A DNA stretch of 40,001 nucleotides from positions 1 through 40,001 of the IMG/VR virus record IMGVR_UViG_3300008259_000070. The stretch is one strand, 5' to 3'. The notes under the pieces were generated by a model that was not told the origin of the DNA, searched no databases, and was given only the letters and a program-made list of their open reading frames with translations. The position numbers and the translations under genes are program-made. Positions 12,805 through 37,551 of this stretch are shown in pieces; position 1 is the first letter of the stretch, and each line of letters opens with the position of its first letter. Origin of the DNA: a virus.

Positions 12805-12820
12805 AGTATAAGAATTTTTA

Positions 12821-12828
12821 CAAAGTTA
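12821..12828 (-). promoter_or_regulatory. Candidate -7 box before the short fibre gene
   Basis: TAACTTTG on the minus strand (12828-12821) matches TAnnTTTG and lies 16 bases before the ATG at 12804, at the end of the upstream 75-residue gene. No clear -33 TTTG was found at 19-21 bases, so this may be weak or need an activator. It would drive the short fibre and the lysis genes. Confidence 0.4.
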
Positions 12829-13053
12829 CAAAGAATTTAGATAGGTAATTAAATCAATCGAACTTGTATAAGTTGCCCCATTGATTGTATGCTGATTGAC
12901 GTTAATGTAATAGATTCCGGCATCGGTGTAAATATGAACAGCTTGTTCATCGCCGATGTCCCATTTAGGCTCGTATAGTCTGCCGTTTGTCACATTGCCT
13001 GTAATGGTTGAGGTAAATTGCACCTCGTTCGGGTTTATAGTTATATTGTCCAT
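12826..13053 (-). CDS. Hypothetical 75-residue virion-associated protein
   Basis: A small beta-rich protein (MDNITINPNEVQFTSTITGN, then EQAVHIYTDAGIYYINVNQH). The sequence alternates polar and hydrophobic residues as in a small sandwich or fibre-tip domain and has no helical or membrane segments. It begins one base after the stop of the long fibre gene and ends on the promoter-like box of the short fibre gene. The location between two fibre genes suggests a fibre accessory, fibre chaperone or tip domain. No family was recognised. Confidence 0.72.
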   Translation of the reverse strand: MDNITINPNEVQFTSTITGNVTNGRLYEPKWDIGDEQAVHIYTDAGIYYINVNQHTINGATYTSSIDLITYLNSL

Positions 13054-13054
13054 C

Positions 13055-16000
13055 TTACAATTTTTCGATTAAGTAGTATGAGCCATACTGATTGTCGGCT
13101 GCCGAGCTTGATGATACCGTAAAAACAAAATACTGATTCTGAGTCCAGTCAATAACGGCAGTCGATGTGCTATTAATTCCAAAATCATCAGGTACAGATA
13201 TGCTCTGCGCATTGGTAAACTCGGTATTGTTTACTGCATTTTTAATTACAATGATGCGCTCAAATTGGTTTTGCATCAGAAAGTTCGCGCTGTTTACGTT
13301 AAAGCTACCCAGCAATATCGGAGTTCCTGATAGGTTTGCCGATGTGTTAACATAGATTCGTTGCGTTTGGTTTGCGCCCCCACTACTTTTGCGAGAACGA
13401 AAACTAAATCGAACAATGTCTCCAGCCACAAATGTATTTGCAGAAATAAGTTGAGTATATGCCACCGTAATCGCTGTTGTGCCTGTAATCAATGCGCTAT
13501 CTGTTCCGCTTTTCCATACCGTTACTCCAGCCGGCAATGTTGCAAGTGTGCCATCCCCTCGGATATACTGAGCCGTTGTGCCTGCTCCTGTAACCGCTAA
13601 CGTGCCCGAGCCTGTTACCGGGCTATTGCTTACTGTAAACGCCGCAGGCATTGTCAAGCCTACCGATGTAACCGTGCCGCTTGGTATGGTCGGGAAGGTG
13701 GCAAGTGAACCATCGCCGCGCACGTATTGCGATGTCGTGCCACCTAAGATTGTGCCGAGGCTTTGGTTCTTCCAAAGGTTGTTAACTCCCGTAGTGTAAA
13801 CCAAAAAATCATTATTAACGGGCGTAACTGTTGTGATGTCCACATCTGAAAGCTCGTCAAGCTGGAAGCCGTTTTGTACAAAGACGTAAATTTGCCCGTT
13901 GCCAGCATTCGCACGCTCAACAATTCCGATGCGTGTCAAGTGGTTTGGCGCTAACGGCAGCGTGTTGGTGAGTGAGCCTGCGGTATTGCCTACATAAAGC
14001 GTATCGCCTGCGGTAAACATCCCAGTGTTGATGCCATCGACCACGCCCTGCGTTATGATGTAGCCCTTTTGATTTGGCCCAATCGAACTACTGAATACAA
14101 GTCCCACCGTTTTCGAGCTGGTTGCCTCAGTAGTGTTATTCGCGAGCTTCACCGTCATGCGGTCACCAGTTGCTCCAAAGGCATAGACTGGCTGCCCTCG
14201 GTTAATCGTTACGCTGTCCGCATTTGTGATGTATGCGAACATTTGATTCGGTGCAACGCCAAGTATCTGAAAGTTCGTGCCGTCATAGATTGCAACGAAT
14301 TGCTGGTTTGCTGCAATGTCGCCGCCGATAATCGGCACGGTGTTATTCTTTGCGATGTTAACAGCTCCAAGCCCGTTGATGTTTAGCGTGGATGCGCCTG
14401 TGTTCGCGTTGGTGAATCCTATCGCGTAGGCATCGTTGAGGTTGTAACCCGTAACGCCCGAAATGCTTACGGCATAGGTATCGGTTCCAGTTGCCTGACC
14501 GCCTTGCATACCCAAAGCTGGAAACGGCGTTGGCGTTCCTGTGCCATCGAGATAGTCAGCGCTTGTGCCTGTTGGCTGGTCGAACTTGCCGTCGAAAGTA
14601 TTCCAATCGGCAGAGCTAAGGTAGCCATCCGTTGTGCTATCCGCTTGCGTTATGCTAATGTCGGGCGTAGTGCCACCGCTTGAACTTATCGGGGCTGTTG
14701 CCGTTACATCTTCGACAATGGTGGGAGGCAGCACAGGGATTGTCGGAAACGGCGTTGGCGTTCCAGTACCATCAAGATAATCCGAAGCCGTGCCTGTTGG
14801 CGTATCAAACTTGGCTGCGAAGCTCGTAAAGTCCGCAGAAGTCAAGTAGCCATCATCGAACAAGTTGGCTGGCTGTATGCTTATGTCAGGCGTTGCCCCA
14901 CCGCTTGAGAATATTGGCGAGGTTGCCGTTACTGCTGTAACGCCTCCAACGCTTACCACAGTCCACACAGCCGCGCCAATTGTGGCATCGCTGCAAAGGT
15001 AGACCGTGCCATCATCGAGCGACCATCGCGAGCCTACAACAAAGCCCTTCGTGCTGTCATCTGTTGGCTGTGGTACGAAAGTAAAATTGTGCGTTACATC
15101 GCGAATGGTGAAGCCATCTTGCTCCATGTAATACAATCGCCCTGCCTCCCATTTCAGCTCGTAACTAATCGAGCAAAGTTGCGCTGTGCCCTTTGCGCCT
15201 CCAAGCCCTGCATCGGTTGTACCTTTGCGAAAGCGTGCGCCGTTATCGAATGCAAGCCCAGCGTTGGCGATGAAGTCAATGTCATTGGTTGTGCTGTTGC
15301 CGATGTCTGTTACATCTTGCAAGTCCTGAGAACCACCTCCACCGCCAGGCACATTGACCTCAACAACTCCAGGCGAAGTCAGCGATGCTGTCACGCCTGC
15401 GCCGGTGAAGTTCAATGTTGTGGTGTTGGTGCTAACATCAGCCCCTTCTTCCTGTGTGCGCAATGGCGTGCCACCGCCTCCGCCGATTGCAACCAACGGA
15501 TCGGATGGTGTGCCGTTGCCGGTGATGGTCACTCCATCCACAGCCACCGAGGTGAGGCAAGGCTCACATGGCTCGAAGTCAGGCAGTGGGATGTCACCGG
15601 TTGCGCAAGTGTCATAACAGCCGTCCTCAGATGAGGTGCTTACATTGATGTCCACATCAATCGCAACGGCAGCCCATTCGTAATTCACTGGCAAATACCT
15701 GGCTTCGGTTGCGTATCCGCTTGGCACTACCTCGTAAGCAATTGCTCCAATGGCAGTCTTGAATTGTGGATCTGTACCGCTTATCAATCGCAGCACTCTT
15801 GATGCTACCCAATCCTGTGCATCGGCAGAGTCGCAAGGGAGGTGAGACTTGCGCACCATCGCGTATGCCGTCATGCTGAAGCGTGTCTCGTATATCGACT
15901 TGCAGCCTGCAAGCCTGAGCGTTTCATTCTTGTTGACTGTTATCTTGCCACGCTTGGCCCAGAAGAGTGTGCCCTGCTTCGCATCGTAATTGGTCACAGG

Positions 16001-16147
16001 AATCGCTTGGCCGTTGCCGATATAGAAAGCCCAAGCTTTGTCATTGCCTTCGCCCACAAGCTCGGAGAGGCCATATATCTGGTCGAAGATATTGCCAACC
16101 TCAATACGTTGGTTCAGTCTATCAAGTATCGTGGAGAGTATATTCAT
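13055..16147 (-). CDS. Long tail fibre with virion-type N-terminal domain and internal repeats
   Basis: A 1030-residue protein. The N-terminal ~175 residues (MNILSTILDRLNQRIEVGNI, then GLSELVGEGNDKAWAFYIGN) are a globular domain that resembles neck or tail-terminator-type proteins, not fibres. A cysteine-rich hinge (CYDTCATGD, FEPCEPCLT), glycine runs, and two copies of a ~70-residue repeat (about 400-472 and 476-544, each with SADF/SADW, KFDxPTGT and YLDGTGTPTPFP) follow. Further short repeats (YVRGDGSLATFP and YIRGDGTLATLP) lead to a C-terminal beta domain that probably binds the host. It follows the tail-completion-like gene with a 4-base overlap. Fusion of a structural head to a fibre would let one protein both attach to the virion and recognise cells. 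Confidence 0.85.
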   Translation of the reverse strand: MNILSTILDRLNQRIEVGNIFDQIYGLSELVGEGNDKAWAFYIGNGQAIPVTNYDAKQGTLFWAKRGKITVNKNETLRLAGCKSIYETRFSMTAYAMVRKSHLPCDSADAQDWVASRVLRLISGTDPQFKTAIGAIAYEVVPSGYATEARYLPVNYEWAAVAIDVDINVSTSSEDGCYDTCATGDIPLPDFEPCEPCLTSVAVDGVTITGNGTPSDPLVAIGGGGGTPLRTQEEGADVSTNTTTLNFTGAGVTASLTSPGVVEVNVPGGGGGSQDLQDVTDIGNSTTNDIDFIANAGLAFDNGARFRKGTTDAGLGGAKGTAQLCSISYELKWEAGRLYYMEQDGFTIRDVTHNFTFVPQPTDDSTKGFVVGSRWSLDDGTVYLCSDATIGAAVWTVVSVGGVTAVTATSPIFSSGGATPDISIQPANLFDDGYLTSADFTSFAAKFDTPTGTASDYLDGTGTPTPFPTIPVLPPTIVEDVTATAPISSSGGTTPDISITQADSTTDGYLSSADWNTFDGKFDQPTGTSADYLDGTGTPTPFPALGMQGGQATGTDTYAVSISGVTGYNLNDAYAIGFTNANTGASTLNINGLGAVNIAKNNTVPIIGGDIAANQQFVAIYDGTNFQILGVAPNQMFAYITNADSVTINRGQPVYAFGATGDRMTVKLANNTTEATSSKTVGLVFSSSIGPNQKGYIITQGVVDGINTGMFTAGDTLYVGNTAGSLTNTLPLAPNHLTRIGIVERANAGNGQIYVFVQNGFQLDELSDVDITTVTPVNNDFLVYTTGVNNLWKNQSLGTILGGTTSQYVRGDGSLATFPTIPSGTVTSVGLTMPAAFTVSNSPVTGSGTLAVTGAGTTAQYIRGDGTLATLPAGVTVWKSGTDSALITGTTAITVAYTQLISANTFVAGDIVRFSFRSRKSSGGANQTQRIYVNTSANLSGTPILLGSFNVNSANFLMQNQFERIIVIKNAVNNTEFTNAQSISVPDDFGINSTSTAVIDWTQNQYFVFTVSSSSAADNQYGSYYLIEKL
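14510..14950 (-). repeat. Two tandem ~210-base repeats inside the long fibre gene
   Basis: The segments around 14510-14710 and 14713-14947 encode the two copies of the fibre repeat. DNA similarity is strongest around GGAAACGGCGTTGGCGTTCC (at about 14520 and 14745) and weaker elsewhere, so the duplication is old or has been shuffled with related fibres. Such repeats allow fibre length to change by recombination. Confidence 0.75.
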
Positions 16148-17888: not shown

Positions 17889-18932
17889 TTACGGGTTTAC
17901 GATAGAAACGCAGTTCACGTAGTTCACACCAGCGAACTTGTCAGCAGCTTCGTAAATGTCAGTCGGAAGAGTTACAATCTTACCGGTTGTAGTCAACACG
18001 ATTGACAAGTTACCGCAATCATCCTTCATGGTTAGGTCAACAGGAACTCCAGCTGGTGTGAACACCAAGGTCTTAGAGTAGTTGCTTCCAGCCACAGGAG
18101 TGATGCCAGTGTTCCAATCAGCCAAGTTGAAAGATAACCACTGGATTGCTCCGGCAGTTGTTACCAATGCTGAAGTCTGATCGCCTTGTGCAGCAGCCAA
18201 GCGAGCATCGTAAGCAAAGCCGAATCCGTTCTGCTGTGTGATAGCAAGAAGGTCTAAGCCGTACTGAGAGCAGCAGCCAGCAGCCATTGCGTTAGCATAG
18301 CGCTGCATTGCAGCACCACCGAATGCTACTGGAGCACCAGGATAGTTCGCCATGCGAGTTGCTTGCTGAATGTCAGCGATTGCGAATGGATTCGGCTCAG
18401 TTGTGCCGTTCATTGTAGCAATCTCCAAGCAGTCACCAGTTACAGTGTAGAAGCCTTCAACATCAGTGCCCCACTTGCCAATCTCAGCAACAGCTTGAAC
18501 GGCAGCAGCAGAAGCAACCTTGCGGTCGATTACATCCATCAAGCGCATAACGCTCTCAAGTACGTAACGGCTGTTCTCCTGGCAATGACGTGCGATGTCA
18601 GCAGCATTGATAAGCTGAGATGCGATGTAGGTATCAGTCACGTCAACAGTGTAAGTTGTAGTGCTGTCACCATAAGTGTTGGTTGAGGTACAAGTAAGGA
18701 TGTCTCCTTCTGTCTCAACTTCGGTCTCAGGTAAACGCTGAATCCAACGAGCTTGAACGGTTTTTAATTTTCCACCGCCTGGAGAAACCTCAGAGCGGAT
18801 AAGTTTAGAGTTCTCAGGTGAAAGAAGGAACTCAAGGAATGGAAGTTGCTCACGCTGACCAACTTCGATGAAGAGCTCACTAAGTGACATCTGCACATTA
18901 GGGCACTCCGATAGAATGCGAGATATAGACAT
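17889..18932 (-). CDS. Major capsid protein
   Basis: A 347-residue protein predicted to build the head shell. The N-terminal helix (MSLSELFIEVGQREQLPFLE) resembles the arm of HK97-type capsid proteins. A long helix follows (RYVLESVMRLMDVIDRKVAS), then alpha/beta stretches (AVAFGGAAMQRYANAMAAGC, SFNLADWNTG) and a C-terminal strand-rich end. Three features support the call: it follows the scaffold and Mu F-like genes, it is flanked by its own promoter and terminator, and it has a long structured leader, as expected for the most abundant virion protein. Cysteines are frequent. The sequence is too diverged for a firm fold assignment by eye. Confidence 0.8.
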   Translation of the reverse strand: MSISRILSECPNVQMSLSELFIEVGQREQLPFLEFLLSPENSKLIRSEVSPGGGKLKTVQARWIQRLPETEVETEGDILTCTSTNTYGDSTTTYTVDVTDTYIASQLINAADIARHCQENSRYVLESVMRLMDVIDRKVASAAAVQAVAEIGKWGTDVEGFYTVTGDCLEIATMNGTTEPNPFAIADIQQATRMANYPGAPVAFGGAAMQRYANAMAAGCCSQYGLDLLAITQQNGFGFAYDARLAAAQGDQTSALVTTAGAIQWLSFNLADWNTGITPVAGSNYSKTLVFTPAGVPVDLTMKDDCGNLSIVLTTTGKIVTLPTDIYEAADKFAGVNYVNCVSIVNP

Positions 18933-20508: not shown

Positions 20509-21420
20509 TTAATCAATATATCCCTCGGCTCTTGCCCTCGCCTTAACCGTATCCGGCACCTTGCGATCAGGAACGGGCACCAGATAGTGCCTGCAATTCC
20601 ACCCACCCACGAAAGTGAAGATTGATTTACTATCTGTGCCGTCTATCCTGCCAGCCCATGTGCCATCTTGAATGTCTCTTATGCCTGCGCTATTCTGCCC
20701 ATCGCCCCACGCTTCAATCTCTTTCTTGTGGAATATCTTACCCTCACGATGCTCGCAGAAGGGCCGTGTTGTAGGTATCTCCCCACCAAGGTATTCATAC
20801 CACTGAATGTCCAATGTCTCATTCACAGCAGCGGAATAGCTTCTGTCTGCCACTGCTTGCGCTGTTGTTGCTGTTGTCTTGATGTTGGCGAGTATCTTGC
20901 CATCTAACTTATCGGTACCAGTCACCAAGCCCTCCAGTGCGTTCACTGCTTCACGTAGCGGTGCCCTTGCTGCAACATTGGCTGTGAGCTGCTCAAGGAA
21001 TGGCTGTGTAAATCTCGCATCCAAACCACTGCCATAAAAGGCATTGATTGCATTCTGCTTGGATATCTGAAGCAATTGTCTCTGCACTTGTTCAGGCTCG
21101 AATCCCTCTTCAAAGGTCTGCGCAATCTCATTGGTCAACTGCACACCTTCATCGATGGAGCCAAGGAATGCACGCACTGCCTCCTTATATTCCGCACCGG
21201 CAAGCACCTTCTTGAGCTCTTCTGCGATTACGCCAATGCGCCTGATGTTTCCTTCAGTCTGCTCGATGTTACCAGCTGCATCGGTATCCATCTCATCCAA
21301 GATGGGGCGTATCTTACGCCACACCTCGGCCTGTGTCTTAATCGCTGCCGTCTCCAATTCCTTCGGAACGGATTCAAACAGCGCAATCTTCTTTTTAACC
21401 AGTTGCTCAAACGATGCCAT
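20509..21420 (-). CDS. Mu F-like minor head (head morphogenesis) protein
   Basis: A 303-residue protein. The N-terminal two thirds are helical (MASFEQLVKKKIALFESVPK, then EQVQRQLLQISKQNAINAFY). The C-terminal third carries the signature of Mu F/SPP1 gp7-like proteins: PTTRPFCEHREGKIFHKKEI, then a GTWAGRIDGTD loop and FVGGWNCRHYLVPVP. These proteins are a few copies per virion, attach to the portal and in some phages travel with the DNA. It begins 14 bases inside the portal gene, the expected neighbour. The conserved Cys-Glu-His and Asn-Cys-Arg-His motifs may bind metal. Confidence 0.87.
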   Translation of the reverse strand: MASFEQLVKKKIALFESVPKELETAAIKTQAEVWRKIRPILDEMDTDAAGNIEQTEGNIRRIGVIAEELKKVLAGAEYKEAVRAFLGSIDEGVQLTNEIAQTFEEGFEPEQVQRQLLQISKQNAINAFYGSGLDARFTQPFLEQLTANVAARAPLREAVNALEGLVTGTDKLDGKILANIKTTATTAQAVADRSYSAAVNETLDIQWYEYLGGEIPTTRPFCEHREGKIFHKKEIEAWGDGQNSAGIRDIQDGTWAGRIDGTDSKSIFTFVGGWNCRHYLVPVPDRKVPDTVKARARAEGYID

Positions 21421-23314
21421 TCAATAAGTCCTGTTGAGCTTGTTGAATAGGATCGAGCTGCGTTCCAATCTTATCGGATGCCAATCGATTAAGCTGTGCA
21501 ATCTGCTCCGACATTGGAAGGTCGATGAATCTTGGAGCATCTTCAGTCGGGATGTAGTTGCGAATCAACTCCATGATTAGCTGAGGTGCGCTGTGGTGAA
21601 TCACATCTTGATACTTCTCAACTGTGCCATTTGCAACGCGCAACGCGATATCTGCGCTGCTCATCAGTAGCAACTCATCGGCATTGATGATAAGGTCGTA
21701 AATCGCTGATGTCTCCTCATCAGTGTAGTGAATGGCTCGGATGTAGTTGTACACGTTGCTGAAGGTAATCGATGGAGGCACTCCAGCCTTAACACCTTCG
21801 CTTATGATTGCAAGGTAGTCGCTTGGAGTTGATATGTCGAATGATGTGGGATAAACCAAGTTCACACCGCCAAAGAATTCACCATAACGCATGCGGCCCA
21901 TCGTCACCAAGCAGAACTCATACAAGTTGAAGAGCTGGTCAGAGATAGGCTTAATGAAGGCATAGAGCGCACGTAGCTTATTCAATGAGCCTGTTGCAGT
22001 CGAAGCCTCGCCAATGGTTCCGCTTTCGTCTGATGAAGGCAGATGCAATATTCTGCGAGCCTTGGCCATCTGCTGCTCAATCTCGGTGCGCAAGAAGTTC
22101 AATGTGTCCATCGGAGGACTAACGAACTTGAGATATTCACCTGACAGCGCACTGTCTCCTTCGCTTAGTGATGTCTTAGGCTTAATCAAGAGCATGCCAG
22201 TAGGCGAGAATCGAGACTTCACGCCTGAGCCATTACAGCTTTGGCATGTGCGATATCCTCCATTGATAGGATCGAAGATGCGCCCATCCTGACACTTGTT
22301 ACCTTCGCGATCCATGAACTCGCAAATCTCGCCAAGCGCAACCATAAAAGGGAACGCACTTGTGGCCTTGCTGATTTGCAGATAAGACTCATCGAGAATA
22401 ACTTGGTCCAATAGAGGCACAGCCGTGATGAACGGAGACTGGAATGCAATCTCGCCGTTAACCATCTGAGGCATCCCTTCAAGCTTGTGGCATGGCACAT
22501 ATCCAAGATTGTGGGCGAAGTAAAGCACAGGCTCACTGAAGGTGTAGTCTGAACGCTTACCGACCTGGTAAATCTTCCAAATATTCATATCATCGTAAAG
22601 CTCAAGCACAAGCCCTGTCTTCTCGGTCTTGGTGCCAACCTTTACCTCGCTGCGATCATCAGTGATGACAAGGTAATACTCGCCATACTTCTGCCCGACA
22701 ATGCTCTTGCATGAGTAGTATTCAGGCATCGGTTCAATCAGCTCATTGCTGACAATCTCTTCGCCTTCCTCGGTCTCAATTGTGTCGATATCTTCGGGCT
22801 CGATTGCGATGATGCCATTCGGGTCGATAAGCTTCAATGTTGGAAGCATCGTCTTGACGAACATCTCCAATGAGCCGAACTTATCAATCTCGTTGTTGAC
22901 ATAACGCTGGAACGTGTCCTCTCCAAAGATTGGCTCAAGCTCGGGGCTGTATCGGATGGACCAGTTCTGATCGGCAAAGGCTCGGCTTATCGTGGCCTTA
23001 AAGTCCTCAAACACGCTCAAGGTTGTGGGCTTGTAGTTGGCTTTGATGTACTCAGCCTGTTGGTCGGTCTGATTCGGGGCTCTTACACTTAACAAGTGCG
23101 CCGGGTAAATGTCAGGCCGGGTGTGCGGCAAGATGCTGTCATACATCTTAGCGGCATAGTTGTACCCCGGCCAATACTCTGGATACTGACTCACGCCAGT
23201 TCGCTCCTTTGTGATTGGATTGATAGGGCTCTTCATGGCAGCACTCTCCCAGCCTTTGTGGAGAGCAGCGAACCTATTTACTACCTTGTCAATATCCTGT
23301 ATTGTTAGTGCCAT
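21407..23314 (-). CDS. Portal protein with internal zinc-ribbon
   Basis: A 635-residue protein starting at ATG 23314 (MALTIQDIDKVVNRFAALHK); a longer frame opens at a TTG and is not favoured. It has the order of a dodecameric portal: an alpha/beta wing (ELEPIFGEDTFQRYVNNEID), a stem/clip region, and a long helix-rich crown (AKARRILHLPSSDESGTIGE, then TGSLNKLRALYAFIKPISDQ). Inserted at about 329-361 is a four-cysteine motif (Cys331, Cys341, Cys357, Cys360, with CQSCNGSG) that looks like a zinc ribbon. The portal forms the DNA channel and contacts the terminase and neck. It is followed by the Mu F-like gene and preceded by the glycosylation cassette, which is a far more unusual neighbour. Confidence 0.83.
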   Translation of the reverse strand: MALTIQDIDKVVNRFAALHKGWESAAMKSPINPITKERTGVSQYPEYWPGYNYAAKMYDSILPHTRPDIYPAHLLSVRAPNQTDQQAEYIKANYKPTTLSVFEDFKATISRAFADQNWSIRYSPELEPIFGEDTFQRYVNNEIDKFGSLEMFVKTMLPTLKLIDPNGIIAIEPEDIDTIETEEGEEIVSNELIEPMPEYYSCKSIVGQKYGEYYLVITDDRSEVKVGTKTEKTGLVLELYDDMNIWKIYQVGKRSDYTFSEPVLYFAHNLGYVPCHKLEGMPQMVNGEIAFQSPFITAVPLLDQVILDESYLQISKATSAFPFMVALGEICEFMDREGNKCQDGRIFDPINGGYRTCQSCNGSGVKSRFSPTGMLLIKPKTSLSEGDSALSGEYLKFVSPPMDTLNFLRTEIEQQMAKARRILHLPSSDESGTIGEASTATGSLNKLRALYAFIKPISDQLFNLYEFCLVTMGRMRYGEFFGGVNLVYPTSFDISTPSDYLAIISEGVKAGVPPSITFSNVYNYIRAIHYTDEETSAIYDLIINADELLLMSSADIALRVANGTVEKYQDVIHHSAPQLIMELIRNYIPTEDAPRFIDLPMSEQIAQLNRLASDKIGTQLDPIQQAQQDLLNGIV

Positions 23315-23365: not shown

Positions 23366-24052
23366 TTAGAGCGGCATAAGTTGATTGAGTTCATAGATTT
23401 GTTGATGTTGAGATTGCAAAAAATTACTATTATTCTTTTCATTCTTCCACAATGCAGAAGATTGAACGTATGCTGTACCGTTATGAATTGCGATTCCTTT
23501 TGGATGAGCTATTTTCCAAAGCTCTAATCCTTTGTTAGCAGCATAAGCAGCAAGCTGCATGTCATTGTAGTTTTCGAATTGCCAATTTATAGCTCCAAGA
23601 TTTACATGTGATTCATCAAATATTGATAAGCCGCAACCAATGCGCTTGCATTGAGTGTCCTGATTATAATCATCCCAGCACTCAATATCATTCCATGAAT
23701 TAAAGTAATTCTCTTGATTCAAATAATCAAAGCCCCAAAATGAGCACACTTCATTGGGATGGCGTTCAAGTCCTTTTAATGCTGTACTTATGTAATCTTT
23801 TGACACAACAAAATCATCATCAATGATTAAGTTAATTCTTTTTCCCAAGTACATAAACCGCTGAGATGCTCCTTTGTTAGTTTCATTCTCGATAATTGTA
23901 ATAGGTAGCGAGCTTTTAATCTCAAGCTTGCAGCCTTGCAAGATTAGCACTACGGCATCAGGTCTTATGGTTTGCTTCTCTAAAGCTGACACAAGCTCTC
24001 TGACCACATATATGCGATTGCGCTGCACTGCTATGTTTACTTGTATGCTCAT
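23366..24052 (-). CDS. GT-A family (GT2-like) glycosyltransferase
   Basis: A 228-residue protein with a Rossmann-like nucleotide-sugar fold: an N-terminal strand (SIQVNIAVQRNRIYVVRELV), a PDAVVLILQG strand, then NLIIDDDFV with the metal-binding acidic triplet at Asp78-80. A later acceptor half contains CWDDYNQD, FDESHVNLGAINW and HNGTAYVQ. No signal or membrane segment is present, so it acts in the cytoplasm, probably on a virion protein or small acceptor. It is clearly richer in A+T than its neighbours, indicating recent acquisition. The start overlaps the methyltransferase gene by 4 bases. Donor and acceptor sugars cannot be predicted. Confidence 0.8.
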   Translation of the reverse strand: MSIQVNIAVQRNRIYVVRELVSALEKQTIRPDAVVLILQGCKLEIKSSLPITIIENETNKGASQRFMYLGKRINLIIDDDFVVSKDYISTALKGLERHPNEVCSFWGFDYLNQENYFNSWNDIECWDDYNQDTQCKRIGCGLSIFDESHVNLGAINWQFENYNDMQLAAYAANKGLELWKIAHPKGIAIHNGTAYVQSSALWKNEKNNSNFLQSQHQQIYELNQLMPL

Positions 24053-24612
24053 CTCTGCAATAGCGTCAAGCCGTTTGCGTTTGGAGTGTTAAATGTGATT
24101 GCATTGTACTTATAGCTTTGTGCGTAGCGCATAAGTCTTGCAATGCCTTCGAAGCTTATTGAGTCATGGTATGCAAGTATGCAGCCCTTATCCATTAGAG
24201 ACTCAATGGCCTTGAACTCAGGCAAAGCATAAGACCATTCGTGGACCGTGTCCACAAATATCAAATCATAAAGATTGCCTTTTAACTTTTGGCAAGTCTG
24301 AATTGAATCCCCATTTATGTACTTTACACGGCTATCACTTTCGCAAATATCTTTGAAGGCATCAGCTCTTAGGTCTTTAATATCAACAGTTGTCAGGCTT
24401 CCATCAGATGGCAAAGCCTCAATCAATGCAGTCGTTGTCTTGCCTGTTAGTGTGCCGAGCTCCAATACTCTTTTGATGCCGCTCATCTTGATGATGGCTG
24501 CAATGGCATTGCCAAGTTCGCTTTCGGACTCCCAAGGATGTCCTGTTTGGACTGATGCCGTTGCTTTCTTAGGCCTTCCGGCTTTCTTTGGTTTATCGCT
24601 TTGGGTCTGCAT
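24049..24612 (-). CDS. Class I SAM-dependent methyltransferase
   Basis: A 187-residue protein with the class I methyltransferase fold of the Methyltransf_24 type. Motif I is VLELGTLTGKTT (about 49-60), followed by LTTVDIKDL with the ribose-binding aspartate (Asp77), NGDSIQTCQ, LIFVDTVHEWSYALPEF and GCILAYHDS. The first 25 residues are basic with an AGRPKK AT-hook-like stretch. Proteins of this class modify sugars or proteins more often than DNA. The flanking glycosyltransferases make glycan O-methylation, a known way to cap phage or surface sugars, the leading idea. It overlaps both neighbours (20 and 4 bases), showing a single cassette. Confidence 0.85.
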   Translation of the reverse strand: MQTQSDKPKKAGRPKKATASVQTGHPWESESELGNAIAAIIKMSGIKRVLELGTLTGKTTTALIEALPSDGSLTTVDIKDLRADAFKDICESDSRVKYINGDSIQTCQKLKGNLYDLIFVDTVHEWSYALPEFKAIESLMDKGCILAYHDSISFEGIARLMRYAQSYKYNAITFNTPNANGLTLLQR

Positions 24613-25513
24613 GTTTGTGGTCTGTTATTCGGTGGATAAAGTATTTATGCTGCTTGCCATCGGCTTGCATCCATGCTTTGAGCTTTCGGTCAAGCCAGTC
24701 AATGTAGAAGGTCGGCGTGAATCCCTTGCCGCCGTAGTAGCTCATCAGGTAGAAGCGTTCTTCAATCTGTTCGTATGTGAACTCTCTGTTCATCTGGAAG
24801 CATACCACATCAATCTCATATGGCTTGAAGTTATTCTTACCAAATGACACGTTGAAGTAAAGTTCATCAGGCTGACCACCGCCCCACTTCATGCGAAGCT
24901 TGGCAAGCGGAAGCGGATTGTTGAGGTACAAATCGGCAGCCGTTCTGAATATAGCCTCTGCCTCATCGCACTTCTCGATGAACTGGATGCTGCTGTTGAT
25001 TGCGTAAATCTTGTCGGTCTTTGTTAAGCCGAAGTGTTGCCATAGTGAATCAGCCCAAGCCCATTGCATCTCTTTGAAGTCTCTGCCTTGGTCAATGGTG
25101 TGCTCGCCAACAACTCGCGTGGCATACTTGGCATCGTTGGCAATTAGCTGGTCGATGAGAGGCTGCAAGTCCTTCAAGCAGACTGCATCAACATCGAGGT
25201 ATAGGTTGTAGTGAAACGGCAAGTAATCGAACAAAAGCACCTTCGCCTTGCCTGGATCCAATTTCTTATTCGTGTAAATATGCTGCTCGGGTAGCTCGAC
25301 AAACGTGTCGATGCATTGGCCCAGCTCGTGGCAATGATACACAGCACGCTCGCTACTATCGCAAACCAACGCGATAGGCAGTGCGGCATTAAATCGCTTA
25401 ATCGAATAAGCAAGGTTATAGGCAGCCCAATAGTATTGCGGCTTGCCAAATGCCACAAGCACCACCCCTTGCGAGGTAGTGCCTTGGCTTTCTTTGTTGG
25501 CAGAACTATCCAT
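24593..25513 (-). CDS. GT8-like glycosyltransferase
   Basis: A 306-residue protein with a GT-A fold: GVVLVAFGKPQYYWAAYNLA, then IALVCDSSERAVYHC, and the metal-binding DxD motif in NLYLDVDAVCLKD (Asp107 and Asp109). Further conserved-looking segments are WGGGQPDELYFN and YLMSYYGGKG. The pattern is like GT8 or nucleotide-diphospho-sugar transferases of Bacteroidota. It begins on the base that ends the tail-tube gene (stop and start overlap by one base), so expression is tied to virion protein synthesis. The target is unknown. The abundant tail-tube or capsid proteins encoded next to the cassette are natural candidates. Confidence 0.83.
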   Translation of the reverse strand: MDSSANKESQGTTSQGVVLVAFGKPQYYWAAYNLAYSIKRFNAALPIALVCDSSERAVYHCHELGQCIDTFVELPEQHIYTNKKLDPGKAKVLLFDYLPFHYNLYLDVDAVCLKDLQPLIDQLIANDAKYATRVVGEHTIDQGRDFKEMQWAWADSLWQHFGLTKTDKIYAINSSIQFIEKCDEAEAIFRTAADLYLNNPLPLAKLRMKWGGGQPDELYFNVSFGKNNFKPYEIDVVCFQMNREFTYEQIEERFYLMSYYGGKGFTPTFYIDWLDRKLKAWMQADGKQHKYFIHRITDHKHADPKR

Positions 25514-26052
25514 TAACCAAAGATACCAGCAGGGGCATCATATTGTGCTGGGATGTTCTTATCGCGCCATGAGAACGTTACTTCGTAACGCTGCAACTCA
25601 TTGTTCTGCTCAGGCAAGATGAAGTTCGCTGAGGTAGTAATACCCACCGGAGGGTTGATGTAAATCACCTTTCCGCTGTCGCACATGTAGGCAAGTACCC
25701 ACGCGATACGGCGGTTGTTTACATCATTCCAGAAGGTATTGTTCTCATCAGTTACGTTTGCATCAAAGAGGGTAGCAGTACGGTCTTCGTTAATACGAAT
25801 TGGAGTACCGCAGCCAATCGGTGAATCAACCGTTACCGGTGAGCCAGCAGGCAGAGCGAAGCGGATGTCCTCGATGAGCTTTGCAGTGCCTGCCGTGATT
25901 AAGGCATCCACTTCAACGCTGTCAGAAGGATCCACAAGTTCTGTTCCACAGGCACCAACCAAGATAGCTGATACGCCGCCGAGCTTGTATTCGTTGCAGT
26001 TTACTAAGTTGTGGTCAAGTAGCGATGAATCGCAGTAGCTTACACAAGCCAT
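25513..26052 (-). CDS. Probable major tail (tube) protein
   Basis: A 179-residue beta-rich protein starting at ATG 26052 (MACVSYCDSSLLDHNLVNCN); the longer frame begins with a TTG and is rejected. Key stretches are GGVSAILVGACGTELVDPSD, GTPIRINEDRTATLFDANVT and RRIAWVLAYMCDSGKVIYIN. Size, composition and its own strong promoter and leader fit a protein needed in many copies. The leader shares a 14-base element with the capsid leader. It lies after the tape measure and tail-tip genes instead of before them, which is unusual. A decoration protein is the main alternative. Confidence 0.65.
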   Translation of the reverse strand: MACVSYCDSSLLDHNLVNCNEYKLGGVSAILVGACGTELVDPSDSVEVDALITAGTAKLIEDIRFALPAGSPVTVDSPIGCGTPIRINEDRTATLFDANVTDENNTFWNDVNNRRIAWVLAYMCDSGKVIYINPPVGITTSANFILPEQNNELQRYEVTFSWRDKNIPAQYDAPAGIFG

Positions 26053-26141: not shown

Positions 26142-27806
26142 TTATTCCTGATAAAGATTCACAAGGTTCTGCGTTGTGATGCGCTCGTTGTCCTGCGTGA
26201 GAATAAATGGCTCATCAGCATTGTCAAGAATTGATGGCAAGCAGTCAGCATCCACGCCTACGCATACGGTCTTGCGGACCTTATCCTTCTTCTTGTATAG
26301 CTCGATTGTCAAGCTGCCAAGGTCATCGGCATTGTCATACTCGATGGTAGGGAACTCATTGTCCGCAGGGAATGAGAGCTCGCCGTTCACGTAGCAATTG
26401 TCGAAGTAGAATACCAGCGAAAGGAAGTCGAGCACGTACTCAGGCAAGCGACCGAAGTGATAGCTTAACTTCTTGCGGCGGTCCACAAAGCTCGCCGTCC
26501 ATTTGCCCGATGCGTATCTGAACAAGTCGCTGTCGGTGTCATATTGCGGCTGGAATCTTCTGCCCTCAAGTCGGATACCTGGGAAGAACGAAGTGCCATA
26601 AAAGCCAAAGCCGAACTGGTTCTCGCCATTGCAACCTTCAATCTTGAAGAAGCGGCAGTCATCGCTGAAGTCACCAATCTGGATGAGGTCGCTGTACATG
26701 TCATAAATCGCGTGCTCCTTGTAGGCTCTCAGCTGCACTTGGCTAACTGTAACCGTACCGCCTGCATTGGTTGCCGTAGCACGCAGCGATATCTTGCCTG
26801 TGCTTGTCGGAGTGATGTTGGCAGTGTATGTGCCTGCCGATGTTATGGATGCAAGATATTGCGTGTTATCAATCCACAAGCGCAGCGTGACATCGGTGAT
26901 GCTGTCAACCACGATGGTGATGCTATACTCTACATCTTCACACACCTCAACAATCGATTCAAGGATTGTGATGTCTCCGCTGTTGGTCAATGTGATTGTT
27001 GCCTCACCATTGCCAACGCTCCACGTATCAGCCCCCACTACCGTCACGTTATCCCAGCCAAGCGGAGGGCAATCGATGCAGCCACCCCAATCATTGAAGT
27101 ACGGATTGTACATGTAATACTGGCCACAAGTGTTGGTGCAGAAGTCCGCAATCGCTAAGCGATAGCAGCCGGGCTCAATCTCATAATCAGCCAAGGCAAT
27201 CGCTGCTGTGAGGTATTGGTCCTTGACAGTTAGCACCGGATCCAATCGCTCCACCACTGTCAGCGTTGTGGCATCCACCAAGCCAGCGAACAATGCGCCC
27301 GAGCAGTACGGCTGAAAGTCAACCAAGGTGACACTGCCCTCGAAGTTGTCTCCTGGCTTAGCCACGATACCAAGCAACAGCACACTGCTGTTCGTGTTGG
27401 TTGGAATATCGTTCAGCTTGAGATATATCTCATGCGTGCCTGGTGCGCTAACCTCCACCATCGTACCATTGGCAAGACTAATCTGCAATGTGCCGATTGG
27501 ATTCGCATCGATGGTGATGGTCACCTTAAACTCCAAGCAATTAATGAACTTGTAGTAAGATATCAAAGCACCAGCGGAGTCATCCAAGTTTGTCGGGAAG
27601 GTAATGTTGAAGCCATCGACACTGACATCATTCACCGCCGCATACTCATTGAACCGCACATATCCGCAACGCCCAGCCTCAAGCTGCCAGAAGAGCTGAT
27701 CGTTGTAATCCGCGAGCTGCGCGAACTCCGAGCCACAGCCCTCGCAGGCTTCAGGCAGTTGGCTGTTGAATATGATTGGTTGGTTTGGTATCGAGGTGTA
27801 GCTCAT
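26142..27806 (-). CDS. Tail-tip/baseplate protein with carbohydrate-binding-like domain
   Basis: A 554-residue, cysteine-containing, beta-rich protein. The N-terminal region (NQPIIFNSQLPEACEGCGSE, then YVRFNEYAAVND) contains paired cysteines. Residues about 245-365 (GNGEATITLTNSGDITILES, then YSITIVVDSITDVTLRLWID) form a jelly-roll like domain of the carbohydrate-binding type. The C-terminal part (FFPGIRLEGRRFQPQYDTD, LSYHFGRLPEYVLDFLSLVF) looks like a tail structural domain. It follows the large tail-tip protein with a 4-base overlap and probably sits at the end of the tail contacting surface glycans. No exact family was recognised. Confidence 0.75.
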   Translation of the reverse strand: MSYTSIPNQPIIFNSQLPEACEGCGSEFAQLADYNDQLFWQLEAGRCGYVRFNEYAAVNDVSVDGFNITFPTNLDDSAGALISYYKFINCLEFKVTITIDANPIGTLQISLANGTMVEVSAPGTHEIYLKLNDIPTNTNSSVLLLGIVAKPGDNFEGSVTLVDFQPYCSGALFAGLVDATTLTVVERLDPVLTVKDQYLTAAIALADYEIEPGCYRLAIADFCTNTCGQYYMYNPYFNDWGGCIDCPPLGWDNVTVVGADTWSVGNGEATITLTNSGDITILESIVEVCEDVEYSITIVVDSITDVTLRLWIDNTQYLASITSAGTYTANITPTSTGKISLRATATNAGGTVTVSQVQLRAYKEHAIYDMYSDLIQIGDFSDDCRFFKIEGCNGENQFGFGFYGTSFFPGIRLEGRRFQPQYDTDSDLFRYASGKWTASFVDRRKKLSYHFGRLPEYVLDFLSLVFYFDNCYVNGELSFPADNEFPTIEYDNADDLGSLTIELYKKKDKVRKTVCVGVDADCLPSILDNADEPFILTQDNERITTQNLVNLYQE

Positions 27807-29875
27807 GGCAGTAACTTGTTGGATCGTAGTTCGAATTGTGCGCCCTTGCGCATTACGGATTCAATGTTGATAGTCTTGATGTAGGTCGGCACCACAGCCA
27901 GCGCATCGTCTCGCCTGCCGAGTAGTATCGGCTTGGATGTCTCTGATGTGATGGCGTTAATCTCCGCCATCGTTAGCGGCCTGTTGAACTTGTAGAGGTA
28001 GGCCTGCACATCATCGATGTTCACTGGCTCCAGCGTTTGCGGTGTAAATGGTTCGCCAAGTACCGAGAAATAAGAAAATGCAGATGGTAGCGTAGTGTTT
28101 TGAAAACCACTACCGAATCGTAAGAAAGGTTGTAATACATTTGGAAATGGTGCGGTTGCGGTTGCCTGTACACCTATATCGATTGCCAAATAATCGCCAG
28201 CCTCACAAATAAATATTTGATTGTTTATTTCATACCAAGCAGGCTGACCGGGGTTTGCGGGGTCATTACCACCGATTGTTCGAGTTTCTAAAAGATTCAA
28301 ACCGCTATCGAATCGCTTTACCATTAATGAAATACCTCGACCTGCTGCAAATGTTATAGGCGTAAATGTTGTAGGGTCTAAATATTCACCAAGTACAAGC
28401 CCTGCGTTAACGGTATAAATACCGGGGTTCGATACGATATAATACTCGTATGTATTTGGTACGGGCTGCGTAAAATTATTCGGGTTAACAACTGGGTCGA
28501 GCCAAATAAAATAGTGCGCAAGCATACCCGAAACCGTGTTTAATGTGGGCGCATTTACTACGCTCAACCTATTTAATATTTCATTAGCAAGCGTTGCATC
28601 AAACCTTAATGTGCCCGTTGCGGTTACAGGGCTAAAGCCTTCAAAAAAAGATAGCAACGAATTTGGGTAGCCACTTAACCAATTAGCCGATACAACCTCA
28701 TTTCGATATGATCCATTGTAAATAGTATTGCCAACTAAATAAGGGTCGTACCCGTTAGCCGTTGCCGTGTTAGGCGCTTGGCTTCCAGTCCAGTTGGATT
28801 GAATAATTACGCCGTTAGTTTCATAACCAGTGTTATCAAATACAACAATATCCTGAATTAGGTTGGTATCAAATATTATTTCGCTTGTTTTAATATTTAA
28901 TATATTGCTGGTGTTGCATTCGCCAACGAATCCAAATGTCTCGGTCCTAAATCCTCTGAATGGAGTTTGAGTAAACTCGCACAGCGTATCTCCGTTATTA
29001 CATTGGCCTACTTCTAAATATAATTCATTGCCAAATTCAGCCGCTTGATAAAGACTACTTGTATCAAATCTCATCTCAATATCAGGCTGGTCATATAAGC
29101 TTGCCGATGCAGTGCTCTGCTGGAAGTATGCAATTGGCTCAATGCGCAACAATGGCCTTCCATTGGCTTGCTTCTCGAAGCCCATACCAAGATTGAGCTT
29201 TGACTTCATTGCTAAATACAAGTCCTGAAAATTGGCTAAAATCTCAACATTGCTTTTTGTCCTTATCGATTGGCCATTCGTATAGAATGCCACATCGGCT
29301 TGAGGATAACTTGCCGCAAAGAAGTTTGAATCAAAATCGATTAAGCCATCGCTCATGCATGTTACCAAATGCGCGAACGTGTCGTAAACCGTGTAAGCAT
29401 AAGCAGGGTTGGGGTAAATGATTACGCCAGGATTAAACACGTAAAGAGGCACAGCCGTTGGTGGTGTTATCTGCGTGCCATTCTTTGAGGTTGTTAAACG
29501 CAACGAAAATGGAATATTCTTGTTGTTGTTTATCTTGGTACTGAATGTCTCATCATAAACCTTGGTCTTCACTTGGCATCTGTCCAGCACAAAGTTGGAT
29601 TCAGTGACAATGATGTACCCATCGACAAGCTTCTCCCATGTGCCGGAATTGCAAAGATATTGCACCGATACTCGAACCAATTCGCAGTAGCCCGATGTCG
29701 CAAGCTTGTTGTACAAGTAGGTAAATACATCACCGCCAAATATCAGCTCACTATCAAACGAGACAATGCGAGCGCCGATTGTACTGTCCTCATTTATCGT
29801 GATGCCAAAGTCCTCCGGATTCAGTGGCTGACCTCGGTCAACATTGTCGATAAGGAACTTTAATTCTGCTGCCAT
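27803..29875 (-). CDS. Distal tail/tail-tip protein with a mosaic central domain
   Basis: A 690-residue protein encoded directly after the tape measure gene, with a 16-base overlap, the place where distal tail and tail-associated proteins are normally found. The N-terminal ~270 residues (MAAELKFLIDNVDRGQPLNP, then GTWEKLVDGYIIVTESNF) and the C-terminal ~80 (LYKFNRPLTMAEINAITSET) are similar in codon use to the rest of the genome. The segment between (about residues 272-608, bases 28050-29060) is strikingly richer in A+T. It encodes a beta-sandwich-like region (GIYTVNAGLVLGEYLDPTTF, GISLMVKRFDSGLNL, EAGDYLAIDIGVQATATAPF). That looks like an exchanged host-recognition domain. Confidence 0.78.
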   Translation of the reverse strand: MAAELKFLIDNVDRGQPLNPEDFGITINEDSTIGARIVSFDSELIFGGDVFTYLYNKLATSGYCELVRVSVQYLCNSGTWEKLVDGYIIVTESNFVLDRCQVKTKVYDETFSTKINNNKNIPFSLRLTTSKNGTQITPPTAVPLYVFNPGVIIYPNPAYAYTVYDTFAHLVTCMSDGLIDFDSNFFAASYPQADVAFYTNGQSIRTKSNVEILANFQDLYLAMKSKLNLGMGFEKQANGRPLLRIEPIAYFQQSTASASLYDQPDIEMRFDTSSLYQAAEFGNELYLEVGQCNNGDTLCEFTQTPFRGFRTETFGFVGECNTSNILNIKTSEIIFDTNLIQDIVVFDNTGYETNGVIIQSNWTGSQAPNTATANGYDPYLVGNTIYNGSYRNEVVSANWLSGYPNSLLSFFEGFSPVTATGTLRFDATLANEILNRLSVVNAPTLNTVSGMLAHYFIWLDPVVNPNNFTQPVPNTYEYYIVSNPGIYTVNAGLVLGEYLDPTTFTPITFAAGRGISLMVKRFDSGLNLLETRTIGGNDPANPGQPAWYEINNQIFICEAGDYLAIDIGVQATATAPFPNVLQPFLRFGSGFQNTTLPSAFSYFSVLGEPFTPQTLEPVNIDDVQAYLYKFNRPLTMAEINAITSETSKPILLGRRDDALAVVPTYIKTINIESVMRKGAQFELRSNKLLP

Positions 29876-32574
29876 GAATATCTTGAATCAAAGCCGTTAA
29901 TGTTTATTACTGTATTCTTTGCCGCCATCGTGCGATTAAGCTTATCAAGCTTGCGCTCCATGCTCTTGCTGTTTAGTGATGCGTTGACTGTGATGCCGTC
30001 CTTGCGCTTGTTAGCATAGCTCAAGATCGCTGGGCGAACGTATCGCTGGTCTATTAGCTTCCTGAATGCTGCACTGGATGTATTAAGCGCATCCAACTCA
30101 GTGCGATGGCGTGAGGTCGATGTCTTGTTTACCACGAACTCGCCGCGCTCTGCTTCAATCAATGTGCCTCCGGCCTCATGGCTTCTGCCTCCAACTGGAC
30201 CACCCTTCTTAAATTTAGGGATTGGCGTGGCTGCGATAATAGCAATTTGAGCCAAACCAGCGGCGAGGGCAATAGCCTTTTGAACTGGGTCGGGTGCTTT
30301 TGCTACGGCTACGGCTGTGCCTATCGTTGCTTCGAATATTGCCGCCGCCTTTTCTGCGACCGCTTGCTTGCGCTTTTCGGCTGCGACCTTTTGCGCCGTC
30401 CTTAATTGCAATGCTTCAAGCTTGCGCTGCTTCTGCGCTTCGTTTAATGTACTTTGTTCAATAGCCAACTTCTCGGCTTCCGATGCGGCGTTAATTTCCT
30501 CGATTCGCTTTTGCGATTGTATGCCTTGCAACTCAATTATACTACCGAATAAATCGGCGGTGGCTTGCGCAATCTCCAAAGCCTGATCCACCGCCTCATC
30601 TGCCGTCTTCTTCTGCTCTTCGCGGATGGCGGCTTGGGTTTCAGCATTAATCAATTCGATTGCTGCTGCATTGTTTTCGGCTTCAGCGATTCGCTTCTTT
30701 CCATCCAACTCTATCAGCTTGATGCGCCGCTCAAGTGTTGAACCTTCGTTAGTCTCTGCCGCTTTCAATAAGCTGATTTCATCATTCACGCCTTGAACCT
30801 TGATGCGCAATGTTTCTTGAGCTAACTTCTCAGCAGCTTCTTTTTCTTTTGCAGCCTTATCCTCAAGTGCCTTTTTGTCGATGTCGGCAATTTGCTTTGT
30901 AGCATCTTCTTTAATTGTAGCAATTGCATTTTGCAATTTCTTTTCTTCATCGCTTCCAGCCTTAAACTTCGAATCAATAAATGCCTGCTCAAGCTCTTGA
31001 ATCTTGGTATTGCTTTCGGCCAAAACTTTTTCGCGCTCATCAAGCTGCGTTGCCAGTGCCTGAAGCTCAAGTTCTGCCAACTTCTTGCGTGCCTCATCTC
31101 TTATTTCAAGTTCGCGCTTTGCTGCTTCCTCTGCCGCTTTTGCTCTATCCTCCGCTGCCTTCTTGGCATCAGCATCGCGCTGAGCCTGCTCTTCACTTGC
31201 GAAGGCTTGATTGATGCCAGCGATGGCTGTGTTTTGTTGTATTCTAAGAGCAATGACTCTGTCCTGACTTGCTTTAATGTTTGATTCAGTTGTGGCGATT
31301 TGTGCTTGAAGTGTTTTAGTCTCAGCACTTGCAACAACTTCACCAGTACGAGCCGCAGCTCTTGCATCTGCTTGTCTTGATTCAGCAAGTTCTTTTGACA
31401 ATCGCTTCTGCTCAAGCACCGATTTGGTTTGCGCTCCAATCTCAATATTTATATTGTCTTGAACAGTTTTTTGAGTTTCTTTTAGCACTTGCTGCCTGTC
31501 GGCCTCGGCTTGCGTAAGCTGACCAGTTGCAATCTTTATCCTTGTGGCCGAATCGAGCTGTAAGTTCTGCAACTCCTGAATCGCCTTGCGAGATCCCTCA
31601 GCCGCTTGCTTGGATAGCTCAAGCGCTCGATTAAACGATGCCTGATTCGCTGCTGCATCTCGAAGCCTATCCACCAATATTGCAACGCCGGTGATAAACA
31701 AGCCGATGCCAGTCGCAGCCAACGCCACTCTGAATGCGCTGATTGCTCCAGTGCTGATGGCAGTGGCAACAGCGACTGCCTTCTGCCCGGCAGCATACAG
31801 CGCAAGCTTAAGCGGACCTTGCCCAGTGATCTGATTCGCCAATTCATTCACGCCGTTAGCGATGGCAGTCACAGCTGTGGTCTTGGCAATCACCTCCTGC
31901 AACTCCTTGCCCTCAGAACCAAACAAAGCAGCCGCACCTTGCGCCACCTCAAAGCCTGATGCCAGTGCTTGCGTTGCGCCTACCGCCGCATCGAACTTAA
32001 ACGTGTCAGATGCCAGCACGCGCACTCGCTCCCTGGTATCTCCAATCTGGTCCTCAAGCTTTGCCGCTGCGAACAGCAACTTATTGAACTCATCCGTGTT
32101 CTCTTTGCCCTGCTCTTCCAACAACGCAAGTTCTTGCTTGAGTCCGCGTAGCTGGCCAGTCAATGTCTTCTGCTTCTCTTCAGTCTGGCCAAAGGTGCGA
32201 TTCAATTCGGCCTGCTCCGCATTCACTTGCGTGATTTGACTCTTCAGCGCAGCCTGCGCCTTGGCGTTATCCTGATAAGCCTTGCTCACCTTGTTGCCGG
32301 AAGCAATCAATGAAAGCTGCTCCTTCTGCAATTCCTTCAGGTTAGCAGTGAGCTTGTCGGATTCTTTGTTTAGCTGGTCGAGTGCCGCCTTGACTTGCGT
32401 GCCACCAAAGGCGGCAGCACCAGCCGCACCCATCTTCTTAAATTCGTCTCCAACTTCTTTTGTTGTCTCCTTGGTGTCAGCAACAATGGCATCGTTAGCC
32501 TTGATCACTTCATTGACCGTTGCCTTGAGGCTCGAGGCTTCGGCCTCATAAATAATCTCAACCTTTGCTGCCAT
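29860..32574 (-). CDS. Tail tape measure protein
   Basis: A 904-residue protein and the longest tail gene. A helical N-terminal part (MAAKVEIIYEAEASSLKATV) is followed by a hydrophobic region at about 264-302 (VAVATAISTGAISAFRVALA, then GIGLFITGVAILV). A very long coiled coil rich in Lys/Glu/Ala (about 310-730) comes next. The C-terminal module is seen in many tape measure proteins: AIALAAGLAQIAIIAATPIP, then KFKKGGPVGGRSHEAGGTLI, then AERGEFVVNKTST. At the usual 0.15 nm per residue this length would specify a tail of about 135 nm, consistent with a siphovirus. It begins 17 bases inside the frameshifted chaperone gene, the expected neighbour. Confidence 0.93.
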   Translation of the reverse strand: MAAKVEIIYEAEASSLKATVNEVIKANDAIVADTKETTKEVGDEFKKMGAAGAAAFGGTQVKAALDQLNKESDKLTANLKELQKEQLSLIASGNKVSKAYQDNAKAQAALKSQITQVNAEQAELNRTFGQTEEKQKTLTGQLRGLKQELALLEEQGKENTDEFNKLLFAAAKLEDQIGDTRERVRVLASDTFKFDAAVGATQALASGFEVAQGAAALFGSEGKELQEVIAKTTAVTAIANGVNELANQITGQGPLKLALYAAGQKAVAVATAISTGAISAFRVALAATGIGLFITGVAILVDRLRDAAANQASFNRALELSKQAAEGSRKAIQELQNLQLDSATRIKIATGQLTQAEADRQQVLKETQKTVQDNINIEIGAQTKSVLEQKRLSKELAESRQADARAAARTGEVVASAETKTLQAQIATTESNIKASQDRVIALRIQQNTAIAGINQAFASEEQAQRDADAKKAAEDRAKAAEEAAKRELEIRDEARKKLAELELQALATQLDEREKVLAESNTKIQELEQAFIDSKFKAGSDEEKKLQNAIATIKEDATKQIADIDKKALEDKAAKEKEAAEKLAQETLRIKVQGVNDEISLLKAAETNEGSTLERRIKLIELDGKKRIAEAENNAAAIELINAETQAAIREEQKKTADEAVDQALEIAQATADLFGSIIELQGIQSQKRIEEINAASEAEKLAIEQSTLNEAQKQRKLEALQLRTAQKVAAEKRKQAVAEKAAAIFEATIGTAVAVAKAPDPVQKAIALAAGLAQIAIIAATPIPKFKKGGPVGGRSHEAGGTLIEAERGEFVVNKTSTSRHRTELDALNTSSAAFRKLIDQRYVRPAILSYANKRKDGITVNASLNSKSMERKLDKLNRTMAAKNTVININGFDSRYSWQQN

Positions 32575-35773: not shown

Positions 35774-35914
35774 TTAGCGTCTTCGCCTTGCTCTGTACTT
35801 CTCAGCCTCTGCATAAGCAATCGCAGTGGCCTGTTCAGGTGAGTATCCTTCGCCAATTAGCTTGCGGATGTTCATCTGAATGATCTCCTGACTGTCTCCT
35901 TGGAATAGTGGCAT
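35774..35914 (-). CDS. Conserved 46-residue phage protein (unit B)
   Basis: The same 46-codon gene as at 636-776 (MPLFQGDSQEIIQMNIRKLI, then GEGYSPEQATAIAYAEAEKY). The first 20 codons are nearly identical in protein but differ at third positions from unit A, which is a sign of selection on the peptide. The C-terminal end is a run of arginines (RARRRR). It lies one base after the 127-residue gene and 22 bases before the small terminase candidate. No function is known. Confidence 0.75.
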   Translation of the reverse strand: MPLFQGDSQEIIQMNIRKLIGEGYSPEQATAIAYAEAEKYRARRRR

Positions 35915-35915
35915 G

Positions 35916-36299
35916 CTACAAATTTAGTAAATTTTCGTATAACTTACCTTCGACCGTTATGTTGATGCTGAAGCCTCGCTCAACGATATCCTCATACTGC
36001 GATTGGTAGATGAAGAATTCATGCAGCTTGCCATCGATGAAGCACTTGGCAGAATAGCCAGGCACGCCGCTCTTATCAGCTGTTGGTGTAAGTATGCCAA
36101 AGCGATATTCAACATCGCCCTCTTTGCTTAGCACAAGCTTGTTGATCTTGCTGAACTTGCGCACATCATCAATGGTGATGGCAACAGCGATGTCATACTC
36201 AAGTGCTGGATGCGTAAGGTAGCCAAAGTAACAGTGCTCACGCATGTACTCAGAGTCAACGAATACGCCGGCTCTGAGTCTTGTGGTTTGATTAATCAT
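35916..36299 (-). CDS. Hypothetical 127-residue protein (unit B)
   Basis: The counterpart of 780-1163. The open frame extends further upstream, but the ATG at 36299 (MINQTTRLRAGVFVDSEYMR) gives the same length and same 8-base overlap as unit A, so it is preferred. Differences from unit A cluster in residues 68-95 (GDVEYRFGILTPTADKSGVP) and in the last 20 residues, whereas the beginning is almost unchanged. No domain is recognised, and it is predicted to be soluble. Confidence 0.8.
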   Translation of the reverse strand: MINQTTRLRAGVFVDSEYMREHCYFGYLTHPALEYDIAVAITIDDVRKFSKINKLVLSKEGDVEYRFGILTPTADKSGVPGYSAKCFIDGKLHEFFIYQSQYEDIVERGFSINITVEGKLYENLLNL

Positions 36300-36498
36300 C
36301 TTTGCGCGAGTGATAGCGTTCACAATCTCGGTCGATGGCATCCAGTTCTCGCTCTTCGTCATAGTCATCGGACTCCTTCTTTGGTGCCCATTCCATCTCG
36401 CGGATGAATGCGACAAAGTTAGGGTGTGGGCAAATTTCTTCATCAATGCCGAAATACTTCAGGCAAAGGTCTGTTCTGAATTTCTGATATGCTGTCAT
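36292..36498 (-). CDS. Hypothetical acidic 68-residue protein (unit B)
   Basis: The counterpart of 1156-1368: MTAYQKFRTDLCLKYFGIDE, then PHPNFVAFIREMEWAPKKES and an acidic segment ending YHSRKDD. The ATG at 36498 is chosen over an upstream non-ATG opening. Two codons shorter than unit A, and the centre is more diverged than the ends. It lies 11 bases after the ribbon-helix-helix gene and overlaps the next gene by 8 bases. The role is unknown. Confidence 0.75.
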   Translation of the reverse strand: MTAYQKFRTDLCLKYFGIDEEICPHPNFVAFIREMEWAPKKESDDYDEERELDAIDRDCERYHSRKDD

Positions 36499-36509
36499 GT
36501 TTTTTGTAT

Positions 36510-36698: not shown

Positions 36699-36702
36699 TG
36701 TG

Positions 36703-37268: not shown

Positions 37269-37551
<283 letters not shown>

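Follow-up and report, generated by a model that had tools for sequence, protein, structure and literature searches.

A predicted GT8-like glycosyltransferase gene fixed in the virion operon of an uncultured phage group, accompanied by interchangeable methyltransferase and GT2-like genes

The window analyzed here is a record of 40,001 bases from one virus (IMG/VR record IMGVR_UViG_3300008259_000070, positions 1 to 40,001), with the virion genes on the minus strand. Listed in the order of their transcription, these genes encode a tape-measure-like protein (29860-32574), two tail proteins (27803-29875 and 26142-27806), a 179-amino-acid protein here called TT (25513-26052), a GT8-like glycosyltransferase of 306 amino acids (GT8; 24593-25513), an O-methyltransferase of 187 amino acids (MT; 24049-24612), a GT2-like glycosyltransferase of 228 amino acids (GT2; 23366-24052), the portal protein (21407-23314), further head proteins, a putative major capsid protein (17889-18932), and a putative fibre (13055-16147). 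We assigned the tape-measure, tail, capsid, and fibre roles ourselves, from sequence and position. A match to phrog_7376 (3.4e-20) identified the portal as the downstream flank of the cassette, as a preliminary description of the sequence had proposed, and relatives place its likely start at the ATG at 23314. The same description called TT the tail tube, but TT, while highly conserved among relatives (alignment A4), matches nothing in Pfam, PHROGs, or PDB profiles, and we dropped the label. The two ends of the record (700-4718 and 35838-39995) are approximately 79% identical over approximately 4 kb and represent two copies of a VapE/primase-type gene. The contig therefore seems to be longer than one genome length, with ends that probably come from two related strains, and the true genome size is likely 35 to 36 kb, as in relatives.

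The three cassette genes are tightly packed. The TT stop and the GT8 start share the sequence TAATG, GT8 and MT overlap by 20 nucleotides, and MT and GT2 meet at ATGA, such that each cassette start overlaps the preceding stop or reading frame. TT and GT8 are translationally coupled, as had been claimed. All three genes are under purifying selection, with dN/dS values among relatives of 0.07 to 0.09 for GT8, 0.12 to 0.17 for MT, and 0.11 to 0.16 for GT2, and their placement as open reading frames between TT and portal stands. No membrane segment was found in the GT8, MT, or GT2 protein.

The first cassette gene is predicted, chiefly from its structural model, to encode a GT8-like glycosyltransferase. 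The match to Pfam PF01501 is below the gathering cutoff (16.3 versus 24.3 bits; E value, 0.0074), but the AlphaFold model is confident (pLDDT, 90.6), and Foldseek matched it to LgtC (1.9e-8) and WbbM (8.9e-9), as well as to UGGT and glycogenin. Structural alignment with glycogenin over residues 11 to 290 (VIA-align Z, 16.9) indicated a GT-A fold of the GT8 type, and the fold over those residues is likewise common to glycogenin, LgtC, the WbbM domain, and GlyE (Z, 15 to 17), as is the DxD motif. In the cassette enzyme, the DxD residues are D107 and D109 (LDVDA), both of which are kept in 105 of the 105 sequences that contain the region. An NSSxQ motif at 173-177 (N, S, S, and Q) and QPDELY at 214-219 are kept wherever readable and, by our reading, sit at places comparable to those in the GT8 family. 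The cassette enzyme differs from that family in its sub-cutoff Pfam score and its identity of about 11%; moreover, where the family usually carries a C-terminal HxxGxxKPW with a metal-binding histidine, the cassette enzyme apparently has (S/G)YxGGxxxTP at the likely place, again by our reading (alignment A1).

The second cassette gene is, by sequence profile, a class I SAM-dependent O-methyltransferase of the catechol/caffeoyl-CoA-OMT/Methyltransf_24 type. It scores well above the cutoff for Methyltransf_24 (56.2 versus 26.3 bits; E value, 7.5e-15), and PDB profiles matched it to caffeoyl-CoA OMT (1sui, 7.5e-18) and COMT, with E values for solved members from 5e-18 to 1e-8. Its SAM-site and metal-site region is common to the catechol and caffeoyl-CoA O-methyltransferases (PF01596 and PF13578). 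The SAM-site glycine and D77 are conserved, D121 is kept in all 113 MTs, and H124, H149, and D150 are each kept in 112 of them. Where caffeoyl-CoA OMT has D-N as its second acidic pair, however, we read H-D in the cassette enzyme. About half of the cassette MTs also differ from the known enzymes by a basic, AT-hook-like GRPKK tail at the N terminus (24550-24612 in the window), present in 64 and absent in 49 of the 113. The tail could hint at a nucleic acid partner; no GRPK or GRPR motif was found in any GT8, GT2, TT, or portal protein.

The third cassette gene is less well supported than GT8 and MT and is predicted to encode a GT2-like glycosyltransferase. Its Pfam PF00535 score is below the cutoff (14.7 versus 23.3 bits; E value, 0.03). 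It has a profile match to heparosan synthase B (5.7e-4), which was also the top Foldseek match (1e-7) of a low-confidence model (pLDDT, 67); compared with that protein and other GT2 enzymes, the cassette enzyme is a single short domain. Its DDD at 78-80 is part of an IIDDDF motif that is invariant in alignment A2. Thus, among the three families named in the preliminary description, that of MT is solid in a domain search, and those of the two glycosyltransferases fall below Pfam cutoffs but are rescued by profile and fold, less securely for GT2. The GT2 gene is indeed richer in A+T than the rest, as had been noted (GC content, 0.37 versus 0.48), but all 15 copies are AT-rich (mean GC content, 0.371). 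The composition therefore characterizes the gene family as a whole and does not mark GT2 as a newcomer to this genome.

How widely the cassette is shared was surveyed by scanning IMG/VR with GT8, portal, MT, and GT2 as queries. The window's own GT2 as sole query found no relatives in IMG/VR, whereas an alignment query recovered them. The scans yielded 107 GT8-to-portal intervals including that of the window, distinct by exact sequence, and close relatives are therefore counted separately. The group has no close relative in INPHARED, where GT8 and MT gave only weak partial matches, in records of uncultured megaphages, and GT2, portal, and TT gave none. A collection of 84,980 genomes, searched for a lead to the host, contained no relative of GT8 or portal.

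GT8 lies between TT and portal in all 107 intervals, and what follows it varies. Most intervals (87) have GT8-MT, 14 including that of the window have GT8-MT-GT2, 4 have GT8-MT-MT, and 2 have GT8-GT2. GT8 is thus the core of the cassette, MT is nearly core, and GT2 is optional. The cassette is therefore not gained and lost as one unit, the question for which the preliminary description had suggested a survey of relatives. GT2 presence changes 11 times on the portal tree but 6 times on the MT tree, so MT type and GT2 travel together to some extent, moving against the portal background. Most GT2 genes accompany a single MT clade (7 of 10 versus 7 of 95), but among 8 independent pairs about 4 agreed and none disagreed (P = 0.125), which is suggestive only. 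The window is itself mosaic. In GT8 and portal it is 94% and 91% identical to L001/L102, whereas its MT is nearest to that of L020-L022 (61 to 63%) and no relative has a GT2 more than 49% identical to its own. When the window is compared with L001, GT8 and portal are alike, and between them MT has been replaced and GT2 added. Once the head genes were corrected for, the divergence of GT8 covaried with that of MT (partial r = 0.38; P = 0.0005; 25 phages, permutation test).

Further details were seen at or near the locus. Two tandem, divergent MTs follow GT8 in L039/L083, L051/L270, L191/L286, and L192, and in L225, MT and portal are separated by an insertion of 1.6 kb (11516-13130) with small minus-strand open reading frames only. 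Many related contigs end at or inside the portal gene beside the variable cassette (L064, L077, L081, L105, L106, L109, L111, and L113), as would happen in a population that is mixed at the cassette. Finally, the 62-kb contig IMGVR_UViG_3300037493_001386 (L182 and L196) has two GT8 genes approximately 35 kb apart and resembles a similar joined assembly.

One relative lacks GT8. In L237, a contig additional to the 107 intervals, TT is followed by 103 gene-free bases, MT, and portal; GT8 was absent from the cassette position and from elsewhere in the locus, and it is the only such contig that we saw. Its MT carries H124T, H149Y, and D150N, while all three residues are kept in 112 of the 112 other MTs. 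If the two losses were unrelated, the chance that the lone decayed MT would fall in the lone GT8-less phage is approximately 1 in 113, treating as independent sequences that are not fully so. Loss of the MT catalytic site in a phage without GT8 supports, from this one contig, the idea that MT acts after GT8 and on the GT8 product.

What GT8 might modify was approached by asking which other conserved residues differ in L237. Tyr6 of TT is tyrosine in every related TT with a readable N terminus and phenylalanine only in L237, and it is the only L237-specific change at an otherwise invariant TT position. In a 345-amino-acid virion operon protein (g345), Tyr41 is likewise phenylalanine in L237. 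Other positions that are at least 98% conserved and changed in L237 are Asn48 and Ser591 of the portal (numbered by the reference row of the alignment), Asn148 of g303, and, in the capsid protein, Ser2 and Thr93. Glycogenin glycosylates tyrosine, which makes Tyr6 attractive as a candidate acceptor, albeit a weak lead from one phage. GT8 might, by extension, be a glycogenin-like tyrosine O-glycosyltransferase that acts on TT Tyr6, and perhaps also on g345 Tyr41, with swapped MT and GT2 varying the sugar chain, but we regard so specific a scheme as a long shot. GT8 divergence covaried weakly with that of several virion proteins after head-gene correction (0.08 to 0.27; 25 phages, permutation test), and neither GT8 (partial r = -0.07) nor MT (partial r = 0.03) covaried with the putative tail fibre. 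The correlations of MT with other virion genes were weak as well, and none singled out an acceptor. A receptor-binding protein was thus rejected as the partner, and receptor-binding sites, one of the targets suggested earlier, are not supported.

We think it probable that the cassette glycosylates the virion and methylates the added sugar. The cassette would be expressed late, and GT8 would transfer a sugar from a host nucleotide sugar onto a protein of the phage particle. MT may then methylate a hydroxyl of that sugar, and GT2, where present, may add a further sugar. GT8 is fixed in the lineage while the MT version and the GT2 gene are swapped by recombination, and glycans should therefore differ even between close relatives. 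The benefit might be altered surface recognition or shielding of the particle. The preliminary description had likewise proposed a glycosylated virion protein with a methylated sugar; that part gains support from the constant place of GT8 among the structural genes, from the decay of MT in L237, and from the precedent of Corndogvirus discussed below.

Other substrates can be imagined. Late in infection, the cassette might alter LPS, capsule, or glycolipid on the host surface and thereby exclude other phages or stop progeny from rebinding debris. Sugar O-methylation of LPS is known, and the LPS-building GT8 enzymes LgtC and WbbM are among the top fold matches. GT8, MT, and GT2 are soluble, however, no lipid-linked sugar transferase or flippase was found, and the absence of an integrase among the open reading frames scanned leaves no obvious setting for lysogenic conversion. 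Moreover, the position in the virion operon and the overlapping starts better fit a structural substrate, and we consider modification of the host surface unlikely. Alternatively, the substrate of each enzyme during infection might be a host protein or some small molecule, and the location in the virion operon might merely reflect late timing. The nearest solved relatives of MT methylate catechols and small phenolics, and the acceptor of GT8 is still only a candidate. Position and coupling are nonetheless fixed through 107 intervals, and decay of the MT site together with loss of GT8 makes separate roles for the enzymes unlikely, such that we find this account quite improbable.

The cassette might instead modify phage DNA by attaching a sugar to a modified base and methylating that sugar afterward. 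DNA-decorating glycosyltransferases are known from phages (cited in PMC12619734), and the AT-hook-like tail of 64 of the 113 MTs would suit such a substrate. The tail is missing from the other 49, however, and MT is of the small-molecule O-methyltransferase type. In addition, no base-hydroxylating, base-replacing, or other base-modifying enzyme was found among the open reading frames scanned by Pfam and PHROGs, although one could have escaped notice since many of the window's open reading frames lack a family assignment. We agree with the preliminary description in discounting DNA modification, which we consider very improbable.

To our knowledge, few phages, mainly those of mycobacteria, have been shown to glycosylate their virions with enzymes of their own. 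Here, nearly all members of an entire uncultured phage group carry one glycosyltransferase, accompanied by interchangeable decorating enzymes, as in serotype-like variation. The pattern suggests that the group coats some part of its own particle with an interchangeable sugar and that phage particles, like bacterial surfaces, may carry lineage-specific glycans. Related phages that differ in MT or GT2, together with the one natural relative without GT8, offer a concrete test set.

The closest precedent is the cassette of Corndogvirus, the cluster O mycobacteriophages, in which an O-methyltransferase and three glycosyltransferases lie between portal and protease and for which methyl and glycan modification of the capsid was suggested (PMC4351075). 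The cassette is reported to modify capsid and tail tube (PMC11600133 and PMC12363180, citing Freeman 2023). It spans genes 33-36 in Catdawg, 33-36 in Firecracker, and 35-38 in Corndog, and the records that we compared were those of sister phages of Corndog. Like the window cassette, it is an overlapping run of O-methyltransferase and glycosyltransferase genes beside the portal gene in the virion operon. The arrangement differs, however, as the Corndogvirus cassette is downstream of portal and begins with the methyltransferase, whereas the window cassette is upstream and begins with GT8. The genomes are otherwise unrelated, as the window portal has no match in INPHARED, which includes those phages. 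Both methyltransferases match Methyltransf_24, the only enzyme family common to both cassettes, but direct profile comparison of the two was weak; no relation between the Corndogvirus glycosyltransferases and the GT8 and GT2 families of the window was detected in the pairs compared. By analogy, we infer that the window cassette may work like that of Corndogvirus, apparently with different glycosyltransferases.
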